Source: Candidatus Methanophagaceae archaeon (lineage in GTDB: Archaea; Halobacteriota; Syntropharchaeia; Alkanophagales; Methanospirareceae). Taken from it: a stretch of DNA of 64,000 nucleotides. The notes below the pieces were generated by a model. The model made no database searches and was not told the DNA's origin. It saw nothing but the letters and a program-made list of their open reading frames with translations. This document shows positions 1 through 7,413 of this stretch, one piece after another (position 1 is the first letter of the stretch; every line of letters begins with the position of its first letter). The stretch spans positions 169,829 to 233,828 of the forward strand of contig PQXC01000001.1 in the NCBI GenBank assembly GCA_003194435.1. Reading direction: 5' to 3'. A program made the position numbers and the translations under genes.

Positions 1-229
1 AAGCGCCACGATTGTAATACGCATCCACAAACCCGGGATTCAACTCAATTGCCCTGTGATAATACTCAATCGCCTTATCGTAGTCCCCTGCTTCCTGCGC
101 CTCCACGCCGAGATTGTAGTAATGCATGTATTGCGAACCGGTTGCCAGTGCATAAGCGGCAGCTCCAAGAGCTATAATCAGCCCTATTATGCAGACCGCA
201 GCCACAATTTTAGCTCTGCTCTCTACCAT
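1..229 (-). CDS. TPR-repeat membrane-anchored protein, 3' end outside window
   Basis: The first 76 codons of a gene that runs off the left edge. Residues 7-30 form one hydrophobic segment (KIVAAVCIIGLIIALGAAA), giving a membrane anchor or uncleaved signal. From about residue 40 a tetratricopeptide repeat begins (YYNLGVEAQEAGDYDKAIEY, then a Pro-Gly turn and a second helix pair start), so the body probably lies outside the membrane and holds partner proteins. The start ATG has an AAGGGAG-type ribosome site about a dozen bases upstream. It follows the small Met-Cys peptide gene by 28 bases on the same strand and could be co-transcribed with it. The partner is unknown. Confidence 0.75.
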   Translation of the reverse strand, partial: MVESRAKIVAAVCIIGLIIALGAAAYALATGSQYMHYYNLGVEAQEAGDYDKAIEYYHRAIELNPGFVDAYYNRGA

Positions 230-256: not shown

Positions 257-406
257 CTATGCTCCACCCTTACCCTTTTTAACGCTCCAGAAGCTCATGA
301 CCACACCGATAGCGAAAACTATCGCTGCCAGAACCTCAGGCCATACAAGTGCCAGATAGTCTCCAATTGTTGTCGCTCCCACCGTTACGCTCACTGGTAC
401 ACACAT
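257..406 (-). CDS. Small Met-Cys membrane peptide A (49 aa), paralogue of the 1411-1581 peptide
   Basis: A 49-residue protein beginning MCVPVSVTVGATTIG, followed by one hydrophobic helix (about residues 18-40) and a basic tail (KKGKGG). An ATG 11 codons further upstream is in frame, but the internal start is preferred: the upstream bases (ATAATAA, a GGGAGG-type ribosome site, GATAT, then GAAAA just before ATG-TGT-GT) match those of the second peptide gene at 1411-1581, and the resulting N-termini align (MC-P-SVT, then TT-G). The gene lies 79 bases downstream of a radical SAM enzyme on the same strand, with a TATA-like sequence of its own at about 453-470. The function is not known. It may be a modified peptide, a substrate of the neighbouring enzyme, or simply a small membrane protein. 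Confidence 0.6.
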   Translation of the reverse strand: MCVPVSVTVGATTIGDYLALVWPEVLAAIVFAIGVVMSFWSVKKGKGGA

Positions 407-452
407 CTTTTCATATCCCTCCCATCTTTTATTATGCATTCATTCCAAAAAT

Positions 453-470
453 GTATAAACATATAAAACT
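453..470 (-). promoter_or_regulatory. TATA-like promoter of small peptide A
   Basis: On the minus strand this reads AGTTTTATATGTTTATAC, an archaeal TATA-like stretch about 47-64 bases before the chosen ATG at 406. It suggests the peptide can be expressed independently of the radical SAM gene upstream. Confidence 0.4.
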
Positions 471-485
471 ATTATAAAAAGAATG

Positions 486-1328
486 CTACCATATACATTT
501 AGTGCAGACGGGATGTGTGCGCATGTTCCTGATGAACGCGGTTCTTGCCTTCAGAATGGTTTTAAAATTGTCATTGAGTGCATTTCCAAGGGAATAATCC
601 GGGAGATAGCAGCAAGGTGTTACTTCGCCATTCCAGGCAACGAAAATGCTCCTCTTTACATAGATGCAGGGTAATATGTGCTCTCTCGGGAGATAAATCT
701 TATATCGCCTCTCTTTGCTCAGTTTCTTCACTTCACTGAACAGCGTCTCTTCCTCATCCCTCGTTATGTATCGCACGTCAGGGTCCACTTTATATACATT
801 AAAGAGTCTATGGAGGATTACTGCATCTATACCCAAATCTATGGCAGTTTCGATGAGCTCGGGAATTTCATCGTAATTATCACGATATATGGTGATATCA
901 AAATACGTCTTTGGGATACCCAAATTTCTATGCGACCGCTCGCTCAGGAGTTTCTCCAGACCCGTCTTGAATCTATCGAGGGAATCCATGCTGTAAATCC
1001 CGAAAGCGAGAGCATTCAAGCCCGAAGCGATGATGTCCCTCACGTGCTCTTCAACGAGTATGCCGTTGGTTGTAAGGTTGGTTATCACGCCACGCGATTT
1101 CGCATAGTTCAGCATATCAAACAATTCAGGGTTTAAGAGCGGCTCACCCCAGCCGTGCAGTCCGACATAGCGGAAATTGTAAGCGTCAAGTATGTGCTTG
1201 AAGTGTTCAAAAGAGAGAGAACCTTCCTTCTCTTCGAGGTGCCGCCTCATGCATATTTTACAGTTCAGGTTGCATTCCCTTGTGGGTTCTATTTGCAATG
1301 TCAGATAGCTGAATATTCGCTTGAGCAT
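486..1328 (-). CDS. Radical SAM / SPASM-domain enzyme
   Basis: A 280-residue radical SAM protein. The CX3CX2C cluster motif (ECNLNCKIC) lies at residues 19-26. A GWGEPLLNP motif follows (the GGEPLL-type S-adenosylmethionine contact), then LTTNG. The C-terminal third has the extra cysteines of a SPASM/twitch domain: a Cys near 217, then TPCCYLPDYSLGN, and the final CTKCIW just before the stop. Enzymes of this layout modify peptides or proteins and bind auxiliary Fe-S clusters. It is bracketed on the same strand by two paralogous small membrane peptides (upstream 1411-1581, downstream 257-406), an arrangement typical of peptide maturases and their precursors. Here the substrate link is inference. 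It could also act on another protein or on a cofactor. Confidence 0.85.
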   Translation of the reverse strand: MLKRIFSYLTLQIEPTRECNLNCKICMRRHLEEKEGSLSFEHFKHILDAYNFRYVGLHGWGEPLLNPELFDMLNYAKSRGVITNLTTNGILVEEHVRDIIASGLNALAFGIYSMDSLDRFKTGLEKLLSERSHRNLGIPKTYFDITIYRDNYDEIPELIETAIDLGIDAVILHRLFNVYKVDPDVRYITRDEEETLFSEVKKLSKERRYKIYLPREHILPCIYVKRSIFVAWNGEVTPCCYLPDYSLGNALNDNFKTILKARTAFIRNMRTHPVCTKCIW

Positions 1329-1380
1329 CTTCAGGTGCGGGAATAAAGAATAAAAAAGAAAAAGTAGGGGGAAGGGAAAG

Positions 1381-1396
1381 GGGGAAAGTATTCCCC
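1381..1396 (-). terminator. Hairpin between peptide B and the radical SAM gene
   Basis: GGGGAA-AGTA-TTCCCC forms a 6-bp stem with a 4-base loop 15 bases after the stop of the 56-aa peptide gene. It may end or attenuate that short transcript so that peptide and enzyme are made in different amounts. The stem is short, so this is tentative. Confidence 0.3.
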
Positions 1397-1410
1397 GCTT
1401 ACTTACTTTC

Positions 1411-1581
1411 CTACTCCTCTATCTTCTCAGTATTTCTATTTCGCCTTCTTAGCGGGTGGAAGAAGTTCAATGCGAAGATGCTACCGAGAACAGCAGCGCC
1501 TATAATCTGGCTCATCGCTATCGCCTGAGCTACTACTGCCCCACCCACCGTCGTTGCAGTTACACTTATTGGTGCACACAT
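1411..1581 (-). CDS. Small Met-Cys membrane peptide B (56 aa)
   Basis: A 56-residue protein starting MCAPISVTATTVGG, with a hydrophobic segment at about residues 12-41 and a charged tail (RRRNRNTEKIEE). The first 14 residues align with the 49-aa peptide at 257-406 (MC, Pro, SVT, TT, Gly conserved) and the upstream ribosome-site region is also conserved, so the two are paralogues with a fixed N-terminus and a free-running remainder. A TATA-like box lies about 40 bases before the start. The gene precedes the radical SAM enzyme by 82 bases. No known family is recognised. The conserved N-terminal Cys-X-Pro makes that end the likely functional or modified part. Confidence 0.6.
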   Translation of the reverse strand: MCAPISVTATTVGGAVVAQAIAMSQIIGAAVLGSIFALNFFHPLRRRNRNTEKIEE

Positions 1582-1617
1582 ATTTTCTATATCACCCCAC
1601 TTATTATCTACATTTTT

Positions 1618-1760: not shown

Positions 1761-3122
1761 TTATATCTTCTTCCTTCTCCTCGCGGCATACACGACAACA
1801 CCTGCTATGGCTATGGCTGCTATGACACAGAGTCCAGGAATTGACGGCGTTACCTCTGCTGGTGTCGATACCGGTGTCGCTGTGGCTCCGGGCGCTGGCA
1901 TGATGCCAAGTTCAACCAGCGGGTTTGCGCCTACTGCCATCCATCTGGCATTCATTGCTTTAACCGAGCCCTGATTTCCCAAATCTTTTACCATAAGCAC
2001 GGAGATGTATTCCTCAGGCTTATGCTCCATGAGCACTACATCCGCTCTGAGTCGGGTCCACCACCATTTGTAGCTGCTAAAATCTTTGAAGTCCTTCCTG
2101 GTGAATCCACAGTCAGAGCAGGCTTTATTCCAGTCCCAACCCAGGACTATTGCTTTTGCCTCTCCTGTCTTGCCTATTTTTACGTATATCCCCGCTATGT
2201 TCCTGTACTCAGGAGGGAGCTTCTCGCTGGTACTGTCCGGGATATACATTACAGCCATACATCTCTTCCCCACGGTAGCGTCAAATATCTGCTGTAAGGC
2301 ATCGTCCTTGCACCACGGTGGAACAGCCCAAACAATCCACTTTTCGCCTTTCTCCAGCGGATAGTGCTCGCGCAGGTATTCTGCTATAAAGTAACCACTC
2401 GTTAGTCCGGGACAGATATGATTGTGGAGTTCTGCACTCTTCAGGAATTCATTGTTTATCCCCTTGCTCCAGACAGCGCTTATGGTGAGAATGCTGAACT
2501 CATTTCCACCGAACGTCTTCTCATCAAAATTGTGATGCCATGCCTTTGCCCCTTCCTCGGTGATGAGTTTGTCCGGGTCTATATTCTCTCTGGAAATCTT
2601 CGAGAACAAAGCATCTGCACCGACCCCCATGAACTCTGAAAGATTAACTGTCCCTGCAGCTTCCTTATCTAACCACGGCTTAAGGTAGCTCTTGTTTACC
2701 TCAAGATAGACGCAATCGCCTGTCTCTTTGTCAAAGAAAGCAAACCAAAGTGGTTTATTATACGCGCGATGCACATTCACCAAATTCCCCTTACCTCGTG
2801 AGACACCAGCGGTCATCATCACACCGTTAAGGGCTCTTTCTGAGCTATACTTGCCAATATTAGCTATATATCCAGCGTCAGTAAGTGCCAGAATGTTTGG
2901 GTCGCCTTTGCTGAATCCTAACTCCTCCATCGCCTTTTCCGCAGCTTTACACCCTACTAAATCCATCACTGATAGTTCCTCTTCTCCAACGAAGTCAACT
3001 AACGGCTTTAATTCCGGATAATCACTGATGATACTATCCTGTGCCGAACCCGGTACAACCAACACACCGGTTATGAATATCGCTAAAACTAAAACCGCCA
3101 CAGCCAATTTCCAATTCATCAT
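1761..3122 (-). CDS. Secreted FmdE-family protein with C-terminal membrane tail
   Basis: 453 residues with a cleavable-looking signal peptide (hydrophobic 5-24, then GSAQ). The body contains an FmdE-type domain (ELHNHICPGLTSGYFIAEY, about residues 232-250) and a Cys pair CSDCGF near 340. FmdE is named for its linkage to molybdenum formylmethanofuran dehydrogenase operons, but its biochemical role is unsettled and many archaea carry exported copies of this kind. The C-terminus has a Thr/Pro/Ala linker, then SIPGL, a hydrophobic helix and RRRKK. This is the layout of a PGF-CTERM-like archaeosortase tail, with Leu instead of Phe. A clear AGGAGGTGA ribosome site precedes ATG-ATG. A metal- or cofactor-handling surface role is inference. 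Confidence 0.8.
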   Translation of the reverse strand: MMNWKLAVAVLVLAIFITGVLVVPGSAQDSIISDYPELKPLVDFVGEEELSVMDLVGCKAAEKAMEELGFSKGDPNILALTDAGYIANIGKYSSERALNGVMMTAGVSRGKGNLVNVHRAYNKPLWFAFFDKETGDCVYLEVNKSYLKPWLDKEAAGTVNLSEFMGVGADALFSKISRENIDPDKLITEEGAKAWHHNFDEKTFGGNEFSILTISAVWSKGINNEFLKSAELHNHICPGLTSGYFIAEYLREHYPLEKGEKWIVWAVPPWCKDDALQQIFDATVGKRCMAVMYIPDSTSEKLPPEYRNIAGIYVKIGKTGEAKAIVLGWDWNKACSDCGFTRKDFKDFSSYKWWWTRLRADVVLMEHKPEEYISVLMVKDLGNQGSVKAMNARWMAVGANPLVELGIMPAPGATATPVSTPAEVTPSIPGLCVIAAIAIAGVVVYAARRRKKI

Positions 3123-3190: not shown

Positions 3191-3412
3191 TTAATTAAAT
3201 AGTTTTAGTATACTATCTCCACAAATCTGATATGAATATAATATAGTTGGATACACAAAAGCATAATGGAGAATCGTGCCCCAGCTCTTTGCTGTTGGGT
3301 CACCCAAACCCATGAAGCTCAATACGTGTCTTGCTTCTATAATCAATGGAACCACGTTTGGGAGAATGTGCCTGTGCCTCCATAAGATGTAAAAATCACT
3401 GGCACCGAGCAA
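3191..3412 (-). pseudogene. Relic of a DppC/OppC-type ABC permease
   Basis: The frame reads LGASDFYILWRHRHILPNVV, then an LSFMGLGDPTAKSWGTIL segment. These are the family signature of peptide/nickel ABC permeases (GAS...RHILPN and LSFLGLG...SWG). The roughly 20 residues that normally separate the two segments are missing, no proper start exists, and the reading continues into unrelated residues after ILHYA. No other transporter component is nearby. It is a decayed fragment lying between two divergent genes. Confidence 0.6.
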
Positions 3413-3452
3413 TGGTGGGGATTGGCTCTGAACGTGAAAATAATCGGAACAT

Positions 3453-3460
3453 TTATATAG
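3453..3460 (+). promoter_or_regulatory. TATA box of the cohesin/dockerin cluster
   Basis: TTTATATA preceded by a purine-rich ATCGGAACA. It places transcription start near 3484, which rules out the upstream in-frame ATGs and supports a start at 3493 or 3529 for the next gene. Confidence 0.6.
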
Positions 3461-3528
3461 AGAATGAAGTTACCTCTTTCTTTGGTACGTCAATGTCAAT
3501 GTCAAGTGAGGGGGTCAGGAAGGCGAAC

Positions 3529-4488
3529 ATGAGGGCAATAGTTCTCATAATATGTGTTATTTTTACGATTATAGCGCTTCACGCCGCATTTACTACTACT
3601 GCTGCTGCACTATCGCTACCAACAGCAACGAACTTCGGTATTATTAATGATACAGAAAGTGCATGCTGTGATATGTCTGTGGCGATACCTGTGACCATCA
3701 CGAATTTAGAGAACGGACCAGTGGCTGCCATCATATTCAATATATTGTATAATAACAGCGTGATGAGGGTTGTGGGGGTCCATAATGGTGCTCTAACTGC
3801 GAACTGGGAGAATCCAACATACAAGAACTTCAACTGGGGCACCAGGGTAGCAATGGTCACCAAACCTCCGGAGAACGAAATGATACCAGATGGCGCAAAT
3901 GGCTCCGTGGCTTTGCTGGTCTTCAATGTTACCGGTGAACCCGGTTCATGGAGCACGCTGAGCTTCTCTGATATACAACTCGCCGAAGGTCCTCCTGACT
4001 ACCAGATCGGGAGTGCACCAGCGAAGAGCGGCATCTTCACCGTGGTGCCCTGTAGCCTGAAGGGCAGGGTGACGGATGTTGTGGGCACCGGGATAGAAGG
4101 AGCAACAGTGAATCTTACTTTGGATGGAGTCTCCATCGCCTCTACATCTACCGATATCTGGGGTAACTATTGGTTCAGTTTCGCTGAACTCCCGCCTGGG
4201 GTTTACAACCTGAGCGTCACGAAGAAGCGTTTCTGGCTCAACCGCACTACTGTTACTATCAATCCAGATGAGAGTACAAGAGCGGATATAACGCTGTTGC
4301 TGGTGGGCGATCTGAATAATAACGGTAAATCGGCAGACATACTGGATGTGTCACTGATGTGGAATGCATGGGCAAATCTAATCCCAAAAGATTTCCGATA
4401 CGACCTGAACCATGACGGTGTAGAGGCGGAGATAGAAGATGTAGCATTGATGTGGAATGCATGGATGGGGGAGATAGTACTGTTTTGA
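3529..4488 (+). CDS. Secreted cohesin-like / carboxypeptidase-regulatory-like / dockerin protein
   Basis: 319 residues from the chosen ATG, with a GGAAGG-type ribosome site and an N-terminal signal (RAIVLIICVIFTIIALHAAF). Order: a cohesin-like beta domain (about 35-180; conserved IPVTITN, NNSVMRVVGVHNG and GSVALLVFNVTGEPG motifs), a carboxypeptidase-regulatory-like beta-sandwich (about 180-255; LKGRVTDVVGTGIEGA), then a dockerin with two F-hand calcium loops, DLNNNGKSADILDVSLMWNA and DLNHDGVEAEIEDVALMWNA. Cohesin binds dockerin, so proteins carrying both can form chains on the cell surface. The next two genes carry related cohesin-like domains and the fourth gene is an archaeosortase. It probably scaffolds surface or extracellular-matrix proteins. 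Confidence 0.8.
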   Translation: MRAIVLIICVIFTIIALHAAFTTTAAALSLPTATNFGIINDTESACCDMSVAIPVTITNLENGPVAAIIFNILYNNSVMRVVGVHNGALTANWENPTYKNFNWGTRVAMVTKPPENEMIPDGANGSVALLVFNVTGEPGSWSTLSFSDIQLAEGPPDYQIGSAPAKSGIFTVVPCSLKGRVTDVVGTGIEGATVNLTLDGVSIASTSTDIWGNYWFSFAELPPGVYNLSVTKKRFWLNRTTVTINPDESTRADITLLLVGDLNNNGKSADILDVSLMWNAWANLIPKDFRYDLNHDGVEAEIEDVALMWNAWMGEIVLF

Positions 4489-4574
4489 GTGAAGATGAAA
4501 GAAGCGAAGGTGCAAAGGTAAAGTAAAGGTGCGGGGAGGCAGGGTAGGGATCAGGATCGGGTCGGGATCGTTAC

Positions 4575-4583
4575 CTTTATATA
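4575..4583 (+). promoter_or_regulatory. TATA box of the second cohesin-like gene
   Basis: CTTTATATA, 33-41 bases before the ATG at 4616, followed by the ribosome site GAGGAGGTAAG. The gene therefore has its own promoter besides any read-through. Confidence 0.55.
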
Positions 4584-4615
4584 GTGGTCATAACATATAA
4601 GAAAGAGGAGGTAAG

Positions 4616-5479
4616 ATGTACAGGATGGTATGGCGTGCTGGCTTTTTAGTTCTATTATTGCTATTATTCTCTCTCCCTACCGCTTCCCCATGCTATCTTC
4701 ATATCAGTGATGCTTGCGGGTATAAAAATACAACAGTTCTGGTACCGGTGGAGCTTGTGGACGTACATAACAGCTCGATTACGGGCATTGAGTTTGAACT
4801 CGCCTTCGATGAGCATGTGATTAACCTTACGGGGGTCCAGAATGGCGTGTTAACCGCGCAGCCTGAATGGGATAGCCCGAGAGATAGAGTTGCAGGCAGT
4901 AAGCATGTTATTGGAGTGGTAGGAACGCGCTCGAAGGCGATATCAAACATCTCCCGCGGGTCTGTTCTGTTACTCAATTTTAGTGTTACCGGCTCGCCGG
5001 GGGAAAAGACCTGGATGAATATCTCCAATATAAAACTGGTCAACGCATCCACATTCCGGTACAATTCAGTAGCAGTATCTCAACGGAACGGTTCCTTCTC
5101 GGTCTGTGCCCCAAGCACTGGTTGCCTCCACGGCACTGTAACTTATGCATGCAATGGTTCTGGAGTTGAAGGTGCAGATATCGAACTGAAACTAACCGAT
5201 AAGCATAGCAGTTATAAAAAGAGTACAATCACCGATTCCGATGGTGGTTACAGGTTCACGGAAGTGCCGTATGGTAACTATACAGTGAGCGTAATGAAGG
5301 AAGGATTCCTGAATAATTCCACCTCATTATCCTTAGCTTCCCCTGCTATCACCGTTGATACAATCTCAATCTCATCGCCGATGAAAGAGAATTTAAACAA
5401 TGAGGGTGGACCTGCCGGTAGCGGCGATATATTTGCAAAGATCAAAACTCTAATCCACAACTTATTTATATGGCAGTAG
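4616..5479 (+). CDS. Secreted cohesin-like protein with carboxypeptidase-regulatory-like domain
   Basis: 287 residues. A signal peptide (hydrophobic 8-23, then ASPC) is followed by a cohesin-like domain (about 28-165; GYKNTTVLVPVELVD, HVINLTGVQNG, GSVLLLNFSVTGSPG) and a carboxypeptidase-regulatory-like domain (about 172-250; LHGTVTYACNGSGVEGADIE, ITDSDGGYRFTEVPYGNYTV). It is rich in Asn-X-Ser/Thr sequons, as expected for an archaeal exported glycoprotein. There is no dockerin and no sorting tail, and the C-terminus (FAKIKTLIHNLFIWQ) is unusual. Its last ten bases overlap the first possible start of the next gene. It probably works with its two cohesin-like neighbours. Confidence 0.75.
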   Translation: MYRMVWRAGFLVLLLLLFSLPTASPCYLHISDACGYKNTTVLVPVELVDVHNSSITGIEFELAFDEHVINLTGVQNGVLTAQPEWDSPRDRVAGSKHVIGVVGTRSKAISNISRGSVLLLNFSVTGSPGEKTWMNISNIKLVNASTFRYNSVAVSQRNGSFSVCAPSTGCLHGTVTYACNGSGVEGADIELKLTDKHSSYKKSTITDSDGGYRFTEVPYGNYTVSVMKEGFLNNSTSLSLASPAITVDTISISSPMKENLNNEGGPAGSGDIFAKIKTLIHNLFIWQ

Positions 5480-5502
5480 CGCTTCATATATCGAATCAAG
5501 AT

Positions 5503-6546
5503 ATGCATCGCACAAAGAGTATCCCTGTAATACTTATATTGGTCTTCCTTATGTTCTCATACCCTGTGCTTGTACCTTTTGCTGGGGCAGATGAGTTATT
5601 CTTCGCTGATTCTCTTGGTGTTGATAACGCAACCGGTTACAAGAATACTTTCGTAATTGTGCCCGTGAATATCACAAACACTCACGATAATATCTCAGGT
5701 TTTGAGTTCACAATACAGTATGATACCAATGTAATAAACCTTACAGGAGTGGATAATGGTGAATTAACCTCCGATTATTGGTTGATAGTGGTAAAGCAGG
5801 TGAATACGATTGGAGGTGTTGGACCCTACATACCGGTAAACTCGAGTGGCTCGGTTGCACTGCTCAACTTCTCGGTTCTGGGTGAGCCCGGTACAATGAC
5901 ATGGTTGAACATCACAAATATTACTCTGAGCAATATTACAGGGAAACCCGGCGCAGCAAGACCGAAGAATGGCACCTTCACGGTTGCGGGCGCACAGGCG
6001 TGGTATCTTCATAACAATGGAGTGATGTACAGAGGTAATCTGTCTATACCAGTAGATACAGTAAGCATAAGCCCGGGTAACAATATCACGTGGGTTGCAA
6101 ACGAACCCGCATTGGTGGATGCGGCGTTTAGAGCAGGCAGATGGACCGGCTGGCTCATCTTAAATGGGTCATTCCCTGAAGGTGATAACTTCACAGCCGA
6201 GATTGGCTCGTATAACTGCTCTGATAATAATTTCAGTGCTGCAGGCAGCCAGAACTTCACCGGTGCTGCTGGTACAGACAAGACCATGTTTGAGGTGAAC
6301 ATACAGGCGAGCGCATTCATGGTACCCGAGGGTGATTACCTCGCTTTTCGCATATCAAATCCTACCTGCAATAGCAATGGCAGTGATATCGTTGTACAGA
6401 CCGGTAAGAGCTTCATCACCTCACCGGAATCAGACCCTGGGTATCCAGTCCCAGAACTCCACACAATTATGCTATTCTTTTTCGGACTGCTCACGCTTAT
6501 TGCATACTGCATGTTATGGAATAGGAGCAGTCGTGGGCATAAATAA
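5503..6546 (+). CDS. Secreted cohesin-like protein with PEF-CTERM-like sorting tail
   Basis: 347 residues from the ATG at 5503, which gives a normal signal peptide (RTKSIPVILILVFLMFSYP). An in-frame ATG at 5470 would overlap the previous gene. A cohesin-like domain spans about 30-165 (NTFVIVPVNITNTHDNISG, NVINLTGVDNG, GSVALLNFSVLGEPG). A second beta domain (about 170-305) follows. The C-terminus is PGYPVPELHTIMLFFFGLL followed by a basic stop-transfer (WNRSSRGHK). VPE-[FL]-x-T-I plus a membrane helix is the PEF-CTERM pattern processed by archaeosortase C. The next gene, 18 bases on, encodes an archaeosortase, so this is most likely its cognate substrate. Confidence 0.78.
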   Translation: MHRTKSIPVILILVFLMFSYPVLVPFAGADELFFADSLGVDNATGYKNTFVIVPVNITNTHDNISGFEFTIQYDTNVINLTGVDNGELTSDYWLIVVKQVNTIGGVGPYIPVNSSGSVALLNFSVLGEPGTMTWLNITNITLSNITGKPGAARPKNGTFTVAGAQAWYLHNNGVMYRGNLSIPVDTVSISPGNNITWVANEPALVDAAFRAGRWTGWLILNGSFPEGDNFTAEIGSYNCSDNNFSAAGSQNFTGAAGTDKTMFEVNIQASAFMVPEGDYLAFRISNPTCNSNGSDIVVQTGKSFITSPESDPGYPVPELHTIMLFFFGLLTLIAYCMLWNRSSRGHK

Positions 6547-6564: not shown

Positions 6565-7413
6565 TTGTTGAATAAGATGCGCAGCCGCACAGACTACAGG
6601 AACCTGATTGTATTCCTGCTCATATTCGGACTCTTCCTCGGAGCTACGATAGAGATCAGTGAGGGTTCTATTCCCGTTGGCATATTACTCTTCACACTCG
6701 CTATCTTCTTGATTTCGAGAATAAAGGTGGGTAAGTCGTATGTGATAAGCAGGTCAAAAATCCACATGTTTGCTGGTATTCTTATCGTAATAGCAGACAT
6801 CGCCTATAACGTAGTTATGCAGAGCAAACTCGGTACGCTGGACATCATGACCTTCCTGCTCGGGGTCTCGCTCATTGCATACGACATAAATAACGAGGAG
6901 ATAAGTCGCATGGGCAAGTTCGGCACTTACATGGCAGCGACATTCATCGCGCTCTTTCTTCTATTCTTCAGCATCTTGTATGAGTACCTGCACCTGTTTG
7001 ACCATTATTTCGTACTGCTACCCTCTGTAGCAATCATAAAAGCGGTCGGGATACCTATCCATGTGGTCGCGAGAGAGACAGTCAAGTTTCATGGTGTGGA
7101 GGATATGAGCATTGTCATCGGTGGTCCCTGCTCGGGCTTATACTCCATGTTCCTCCTCATCGGGATTATGGTGGCGTACACGAGGATAGAATATGTAGAG
7201 CGGAGAAAGTTCTTCTCTTTACTCATTATCGCTATTGCAGTTGCATATATAGCGAATCTTATGCGTGTTGTAACGCTCTATATCGTTGGTTACTATTATG
7301 GTGAAGACTTGATGTACACGGTACACGTGCATTTAGGGTGGGTGATATTTGTAATAGTTGTGGCAGTGCTACTGCATTTACTGGAGAATATGAGGCTGAA
7401 GCGTGAATCGTAG
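6565..7413 (+). CDS. Archaeosortase (ArtC-like)
   Basis: 282 residues with about eight membrane helices. The exosortase/archaeosortase catalytic signature is present: Cys189 in GGPCSGLYSM, Arg234 in IANLMRVVTLY, and His254 or His256 in YTVHVHLGW. These enzymes cut the C-terminal sorting tail of exported proteins and join them to a lipid or other anchor at the outer face of the membrane. The neighbour just upstream ends in a PEF-CTERM-like tail, so archaeosortase C is the likely class. The start is TTG (6565 or 6568) after the ribosome site AAGGTAAG; an ATG at 6577 is also possible. It closes the cohesin/dockerin cluster. Confidence 0.85.
   Translation: MLNKMRSRTDYRNLIVFLLIFGLFLGATIEISEGSIPVGILLFTLAIFLISRIKVGKSYVISRSKIHMFAGILIVIADIAYNVVMQSKLGTLDIMTFLLGVSLIAYDINNEEISRMGKFGTYMAATFIALFLLFFSILYEYLHLFDHYFVLLPSVAIIKAVGIPIHVVARETVKFHGVEDMSIVIGGPCSGLYSMFLLIGIMVAYTRIEYVERRKFFSLLIIAIAVAYIANLMRVVTLYIVGYYYGEDLMYTVHVHLGWVIFVIVVAVLLHLLENMRLKRES

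Follow-up and report, generated by a model that had tools for sequence, protein, structure and literature searches.

Gene content of the locus

The window, the whole 64,000-nucleotide stretch of archaeal DNA analyzed here, carries a run of minus-strand genes transcribed in the order FmdE protein (3122-1761), peptide A, radical SAM/SPASM enzyme, peptide B and TPR protein. Peptide A (56 aa, MCAPISVTATTVGGAVVAQAIAMSQIIGAAVLGSIFALNFFHPLRRRNRNTEKIEE; 1411..1581, minus strand) has an MCxP N-terminus (MCAPISVT), then a single membrane helix and lastly a basic tail. Peptide B (49 aa, MCVPVSVTVGATTIGDYLALVWPEVLAAIVFAIGVVMSFWSVKKGKGGA; 257..406, minus strand) starts with MCVPVSVT; both are under purifying selection and match the family profile (E values of 1.4e-23 for A and 1.9e-15 for B). 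Between them lies the 280-aa enzyme (486..1328, minus strand), identified by Pfam, alignments and an AF2 model. The original prediction had placed two short genes of 49 and 56 aa on either side of a SPASM-type radical SAM gene, and these coordinates were confirmed, on the minus strand. The cassette is wider than that trio, with an FmdE gene upstream and a TPR gene downstream. The upstream gene encodes a 453-aa surface protein with an FmdE domain (1761..3122, minus strand; Pfam FmdE, 7e-18), a signal sequence and a C-terminal anchor, and FmdE proteins are recurrent cassette neighbors that adjoin the peptide in archaea and bacteria. Only the 5' part of the membrane-anchored TPR protein is present (1..229, minus strand; full-length homologue at L173:2733-4055), the gene running past the window start into a stretch of N.

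Ribosome-site-like sequences lie 5' of peptide B (GGGAGGG, 417..423, minus strand) and of peptide A (GGGGTGA, 1592..1598, minus strand). The start of peptide B is placed at 406, not at the upstream ATG at 439, because of conservation and the GGGAGGG at 417-423. Conserved leader DNA had also been proposed for the two peptide genes; a GGAGG-like ribosome site and a GATAT-GAAAA stretch do precede the ATG of both, and the likeness is weaker than claimed. The closest named relative is a Methanophagales (ANME-1) bin (82% enzyme identity), and the nearest genome, G006 (95% enzyme identity), has at locus L173 peptide A, then the enzyme, peptide B, the TPR protein and, last, the transporter-like membrane protein. 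Sequence left of the window consists of N (L154:11683-14829) where a G006-type order would place the membrane protein gene, so its absence from the window genome is uninformative.

On the plus strand, three adjoining genes with cohesin-like domains occupy 3346-6546 (Pfam Cohesin, 1e-6, 1e-5 and 6e-8), the first with dockerin-like repeats seen by eye at its end (DLNNNGK, DLNHDG). Directly after them, at 6565-7413 (plus strand), is a membrane protein of the exosortase/archaeosortase family (Pfam Exosortase_EpsH, 7e-16), which may anchor the neighboring cohesin-type surface proteins.

The peptide family and its pairing with the enzyme

Neither peptide matches a Pfam or NCBIfam family, and a PDB profile search with them gave nothing credible. 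Small MCxP ORFs with a membrane helix number 2 in the window versus 0.05 per 64 kb expected in first-order Markov sequence, and the DNA pattern ATGTGYNNNCCNRTNWSNGTNAC matches 4 of 79 genomes (reversed control, 0). Over 12 homologous pairs the peptide genes show purifying selection (pS 0.276, pN 0.052, falling to pN 0.022 in the first 12 codons), which shows them to be coding. In total, 82 distinct MCxP peptides were collected, with a median length of 52 aa and with up to 7 profile matches in one genome. M1, C2 and P4 are invariant in the aligned peptides and always directly at the start, an invariance that is not independent for C2 and P4, as the collection step demanded them and the profiles were trained on them; independent support for the motif comes from the enzyme loci, nearly every one of which has an MCxP peptide where flanking sequence suffices. 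Residue 3 is usually A, V or T, residue 5 is V or I, and 74 of 82 peptides have V as residue 7. As originally described, it is the N-terminal part that is conserved, and a membrane helix makes up the rest.

No charge occurs in the first 16 residues of 61/82 peptides, and the last 18 residues are more positive than the first 18 in 79/82 (mean net charge +3.3 and +0.1, respectively). By the positive-inside rule, the basic tail and uncharged N-terminus place the N-terminus outside, and the topology predicted from sequence is thus one membrane helix, N-out. In bacterial peptides (L009-L011, L110-L116), the MCxP segment is followed by a GCxGxC-like motif with additional Cys residues that most archaeal peptides lack, so the chemistry may differ between groups.

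The short peptides had been proposed to be a membrane-bound family modified by the SPASM enzyme, and across the 345 genomes of the host phylum the pairing of the two is strong: 33 have enzyme and peptide and 308 lack both, with 2 carrying the enzyme alone and 2 the peptide alone (Fisher 3e-41; a peptide was counted when its match starts at the N-terminus and reaches about 1e-4). Within the host family, the enzyme is found in 21 of 51 genomes, all 21 of which have the peptide, and two further genomes have the peptide only, one of them at a contig end. Most often a peptide gene lies immediately upstream of the enzyme gene, no more than about 135 bp away; as in RiPP systems, a short peptide gene adjoins a radical SAM/SPASM maturase and is co-inherited with it. 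A search in archaea and bacteria for peptides widespread without the enzyme, or for the enzyme without peptides, found neither pattern, which supports the proposed peptide family. Enzymes of genus g10 at first seemed to be such a case, a candidate that was rejected: a peptide-gene remnant remains at the enzyme, with intact peptides beside neighboring TPR genes. The remnant, of 15 codons (MCTPMAVAAEPCLRK in L074), overlaps the enzyme start (L074:7231-8110, L073:13558-14440).

In the two enzyme-only genomes of the phylum, the enzymes come from a remote clade. The two copies in one of these genomes, G1087, are accompanied nearby by two large proteins of 539 and 576 aa (L142:3542-5161 and L143:2536-4266) that start with MCGP[IV]VYPPVITS and adjoin an uncharacterised gene; the one tested has no Pfam match. 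These proteins hint that the N-terminal MCxP-type motif may be portable.

Enzyme-peptide pairs also occur in Thermoproteota, Chloroflexota, Desulfobacterota-like and Latescibacterota bins. Matches outside the host phylum are sparse: 3/343 genomes of the class of the Dehalococcoidia bin, 6/345 of the phylum of G083 and 5/81 of the class of the Thermoproteales bin. In the enzyme tree (midpoint-rooted, for drawing only), all bacterial members form one group (support 100/98) beside ANME-1 enzymes, joined with four ANME-1 rows at 97/93. This position and the patchy distribution suggest transfer between domains. Bins can be contaminated; Micrarchaeota and Baldrarchaeota records (L012, L013) were rejected as two independent lineages, having identical peptides and a 1131-bp exact block in common, and one of the two bins is probably contaminated. 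In the enzyme tree they lie closest to L133.

The enzyme and the wider cassette

The enzyme matches Pfam Radical_SAM (5e-15) and SPASM (8e-10). It has seven conserved Cys, three in the radical SAM cluster motif (CxxxCxxC) and four in the SPASM region (C221, C239, C275, C278), the latter enough for one auxiliary cluster, and it ends in CxxCxW, as do most members in the alignment. The AF2 model (pLDDT 91) has BlsE, SkfB and SuiB as its best PDB matches, and profile matches to 5wgg and SkfB run along most of the enzyme length. With the peptide maturases SkfB and SuiB among the best matches, the assignment to a peptide-modifying type held up; the model also matches PqqE, EpeE and MoaA, and the predicted fold is common to non-peptide enzymes (BlsE, MoaA).

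One alternative is an enzyme that matures a metalloenzyme or cofactor, the peptides being unmodified small membrane subunits. TIGR04317 (W_rSAM_matur, the tungsten cofactor oxidoreductase radical SAM maturase) is the best NCBIfam match of every member tested, at 82-125 bits (best 4e-36), with all of them below the curated cut-off of 380 bits; this model and TIGR04311, the nearest named ones, both concern metalloenzyme maturation, and both matches lie far below cut-off. None of the cassettes has a recognised tungsten oxidoreductase as a neighbor, and the most constant partner is the peptide (46 of 51 loci), which makes this alternative quite unlikely.

Around the 51 enzyme loci, many of which end at contig ends, the peptide is found in 46, a membrane protein of about 185 aa in 34, and FmdE and TPR proteins in 21 each. 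Dehalococcoidia-type loci (L011, L110) contain, in this order, FmdE, peptide, TPR, peptide, enzyme and membrane protein; peptide and membrane protein occur together with no enzyme adjoining in L073, L075, L078, L079 and L081; and genus g10 has TPR-peptide units in tandem repeats (L073, L074, L076). From these arrangements, a pattern judged by eye, we suggest the membrane protein as the partner of A-type peptides and the TPR protein as that of B-type peptides. Such tandem units, and the surface features of the FmdE and TPR proteins, would also suit peptides that are assembly or docking subunits of an anchored TPR/FmdE surface complex with no role in transport, for which the enzyme would make a Cys2 anchor or cross-link. 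FmdE and TPR are each absent from more than half of the loci, the membrane protein is present in 34 of 51, and transport genes are enriched nearby, all of which argue against a surface complex and leave it improbable. Archaea of more than one family have, near the cassette, a recurring methyltransferase whose N-terminus is WNExWK-like (L073, L078, L144, L183), and the identity of a nearby P-loop ATPase as CooC was not confirmed.

The membrane protein is present in 17 of 23 peptide-positive versus 1 of 28 peptide-negative genomes of the host family; in the 6 of 23 where it was not found, some loci lie at contig ends or N. It matches no Pfam (including CbiM) or NCBIfam model. Its AF2 model (pLDDT 83.5, pTM 0.82) has an ECF S-component as best PDB fold match (5edl, probability 1.00, TM 0.65, E 4e-3), with further S-components among the matches (4rfs_S, probability 0.90; 4huq_S, probability 0.82). 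A PDB profile search gave no sequence match to solved S-components, so the likeness is by fold only; we conclude that the modeled protein has the S-component fold, at a moderate E-value.

Among adjacent genes examined, the EcfT/EcfA-type genes CbiQ and CbiO adjoin the cassette only in L085 and L086, within a DUF4198-CbiM-CbiQ-CbiO set, and in L179. NikA-like substrate-binding proteins lie near the cassette in L073, L075, L078, L079 and L081, FecCD in L087 and L089, TonB receptors in L111 and L113-L115, and FeoB with DUF4198 in L115. A published Ni2+-binding family, DUF4198 has a Kd of 18 nM for the ion, and its genes occur close to TonB/NikR genes (PMC12537917). Metal-transport-type genes are near 11 of 29 cassette loci versus 3 of 40 regions taken from related genomes as controls (p 0.0025), or 6 of 20 enzyme loci taken alone (p 0.03); with gene families picked after being seen and several loci related, the metal association is suggestive only.

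A possible role in uptake

The cassette is undescribed in Pfam and NCBIfam, and no paper on it was found in searches on archaeal RiPPs and on FmdE/ECF with radical SAM, which covered few subscription journals; the MCxP peptide and radical SAM enzyme look like an undescribed system. We infer that the enzyme modifies the peptide, and the MCxP peptide is very probably its substrate. The wider cassette with its ECF-S-like protein points to uptake, not to a natural product, and uptake is the probable role. Ni or Co as cargo has a little less than an even chance. The reading that we prefer, a cassette spread across domains for uptake in which the enzyme modifies the MCxP end of the peptide and the peptide works with the ECF-S-like protein, has about an even chance of being right in full.

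By this mechanism, the enzyme would most likely work on the N-terminal Met-Cys-X-Pro segment while the peptide is still in the cytoplasm, and the modified peptide would then insert with its N-terminal end outside and its basic tail inside, serving as a small subunit of an uptake complex. Peptide A would sit beside the ECF-S-like protein with its modified Cys end as part of the substrate site, much as NikM/CbiM employ the first two residues of their additional N-terminal helix, and peptide B would associate with the TPR protein. The substrate would most likely be a metal, either as an ion (Ni or Co) or in chelated form, or possibly a cofactor. A thioether involving Cys2 is one candidate for the bond formed. 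Methionine aminopeptidase could remove Met1 ahead of Cys2, and the free amine and thiol of the Cys would then be a natural chelating end.

Known systems resemble the cassette in part. CbiN and NikN are likewise small membrane partners of a metal ECF transporter, for which we know of no radical SAM enzyme. They have two helices, unlike the one-helix MCxP peptides (PMC2667541). The closest analogues, the Ni/Co ECF S-components NikM and CbiM, share with the cassette an S-component-like core, Ni/Co-type gene neighbors in several loci, and an additional N-terminal helix with invariant first two residues, which in NikM/CbiM bind metal (PMC6828968). In the cassette, the helix is a separate peptide that starts with Met-Cys instead of Met-His and has its own radical SAM enzyme; this start, and the lack of a Pfam CbiM match, set it outside the NikM/CbiM family. 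By analogy, the cassette may be a split NikM/CbiM-like importer found in archaea and bacteria, in which the peptide is the detached substrate-binding helix and modification at Met-Cys builds the metal site; in this specific form the proposal is tentative and somewhat unlikely.

With the RiPP maturases SkfB, SuiB and the 5wgg enzyme, the cassette enzyme shares a radical SAM core, a Cys-rich C-terminal domain and an adjoining peptide gene, and the conserved peptide segment contains a Cys, as in those systems. The enzyme might then mature the peptides into a bacteriocin or signal that is secreted, as SPASM enzymes of the same fold do mature RiPPs and the peptides are multi-copy in some genomes. 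The enzyme differs in its length of 280 aa, without an RRE-type N-terminal extension and with only four Cys in the auxiliary region, and the peptides are not built as leader and core: their conservation begins right at the initiator Met, and what follows is a retained membrane helix with a basic tail. Selection is purifying, not diversifying, and comparison of the neighbors at the 51 loci with a limited reference set showed no recurring peptidase, exporter or immunity gene, making a classical RiPP very unlikely. The notion that the peptides are just chance ORFs next to an ordinary radical SAM gene, easy as short ORFs are to find by eye, is refuted by the co-occurrence, the purifying selection and the cross-domain conservation.

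Radical SAM/SPASM enzymes are familiar as makers of peptide natural products and cofactors. If the uptake reading is true, their chemistry would extend to the building of transporters, with permanently membrane-inserted micropeptides as substrates, and the 82 peptides, compact 280-aa enzyme and defined N-terminal motif form a ready test set. Finding one cassette in ANME-1 methane oxidisers, in other archaea and in anaerobic bacteria suggests that all face a similar need which it meets, plausibly that of supplying metal to C1 metabolism dependent on Ni or Co.
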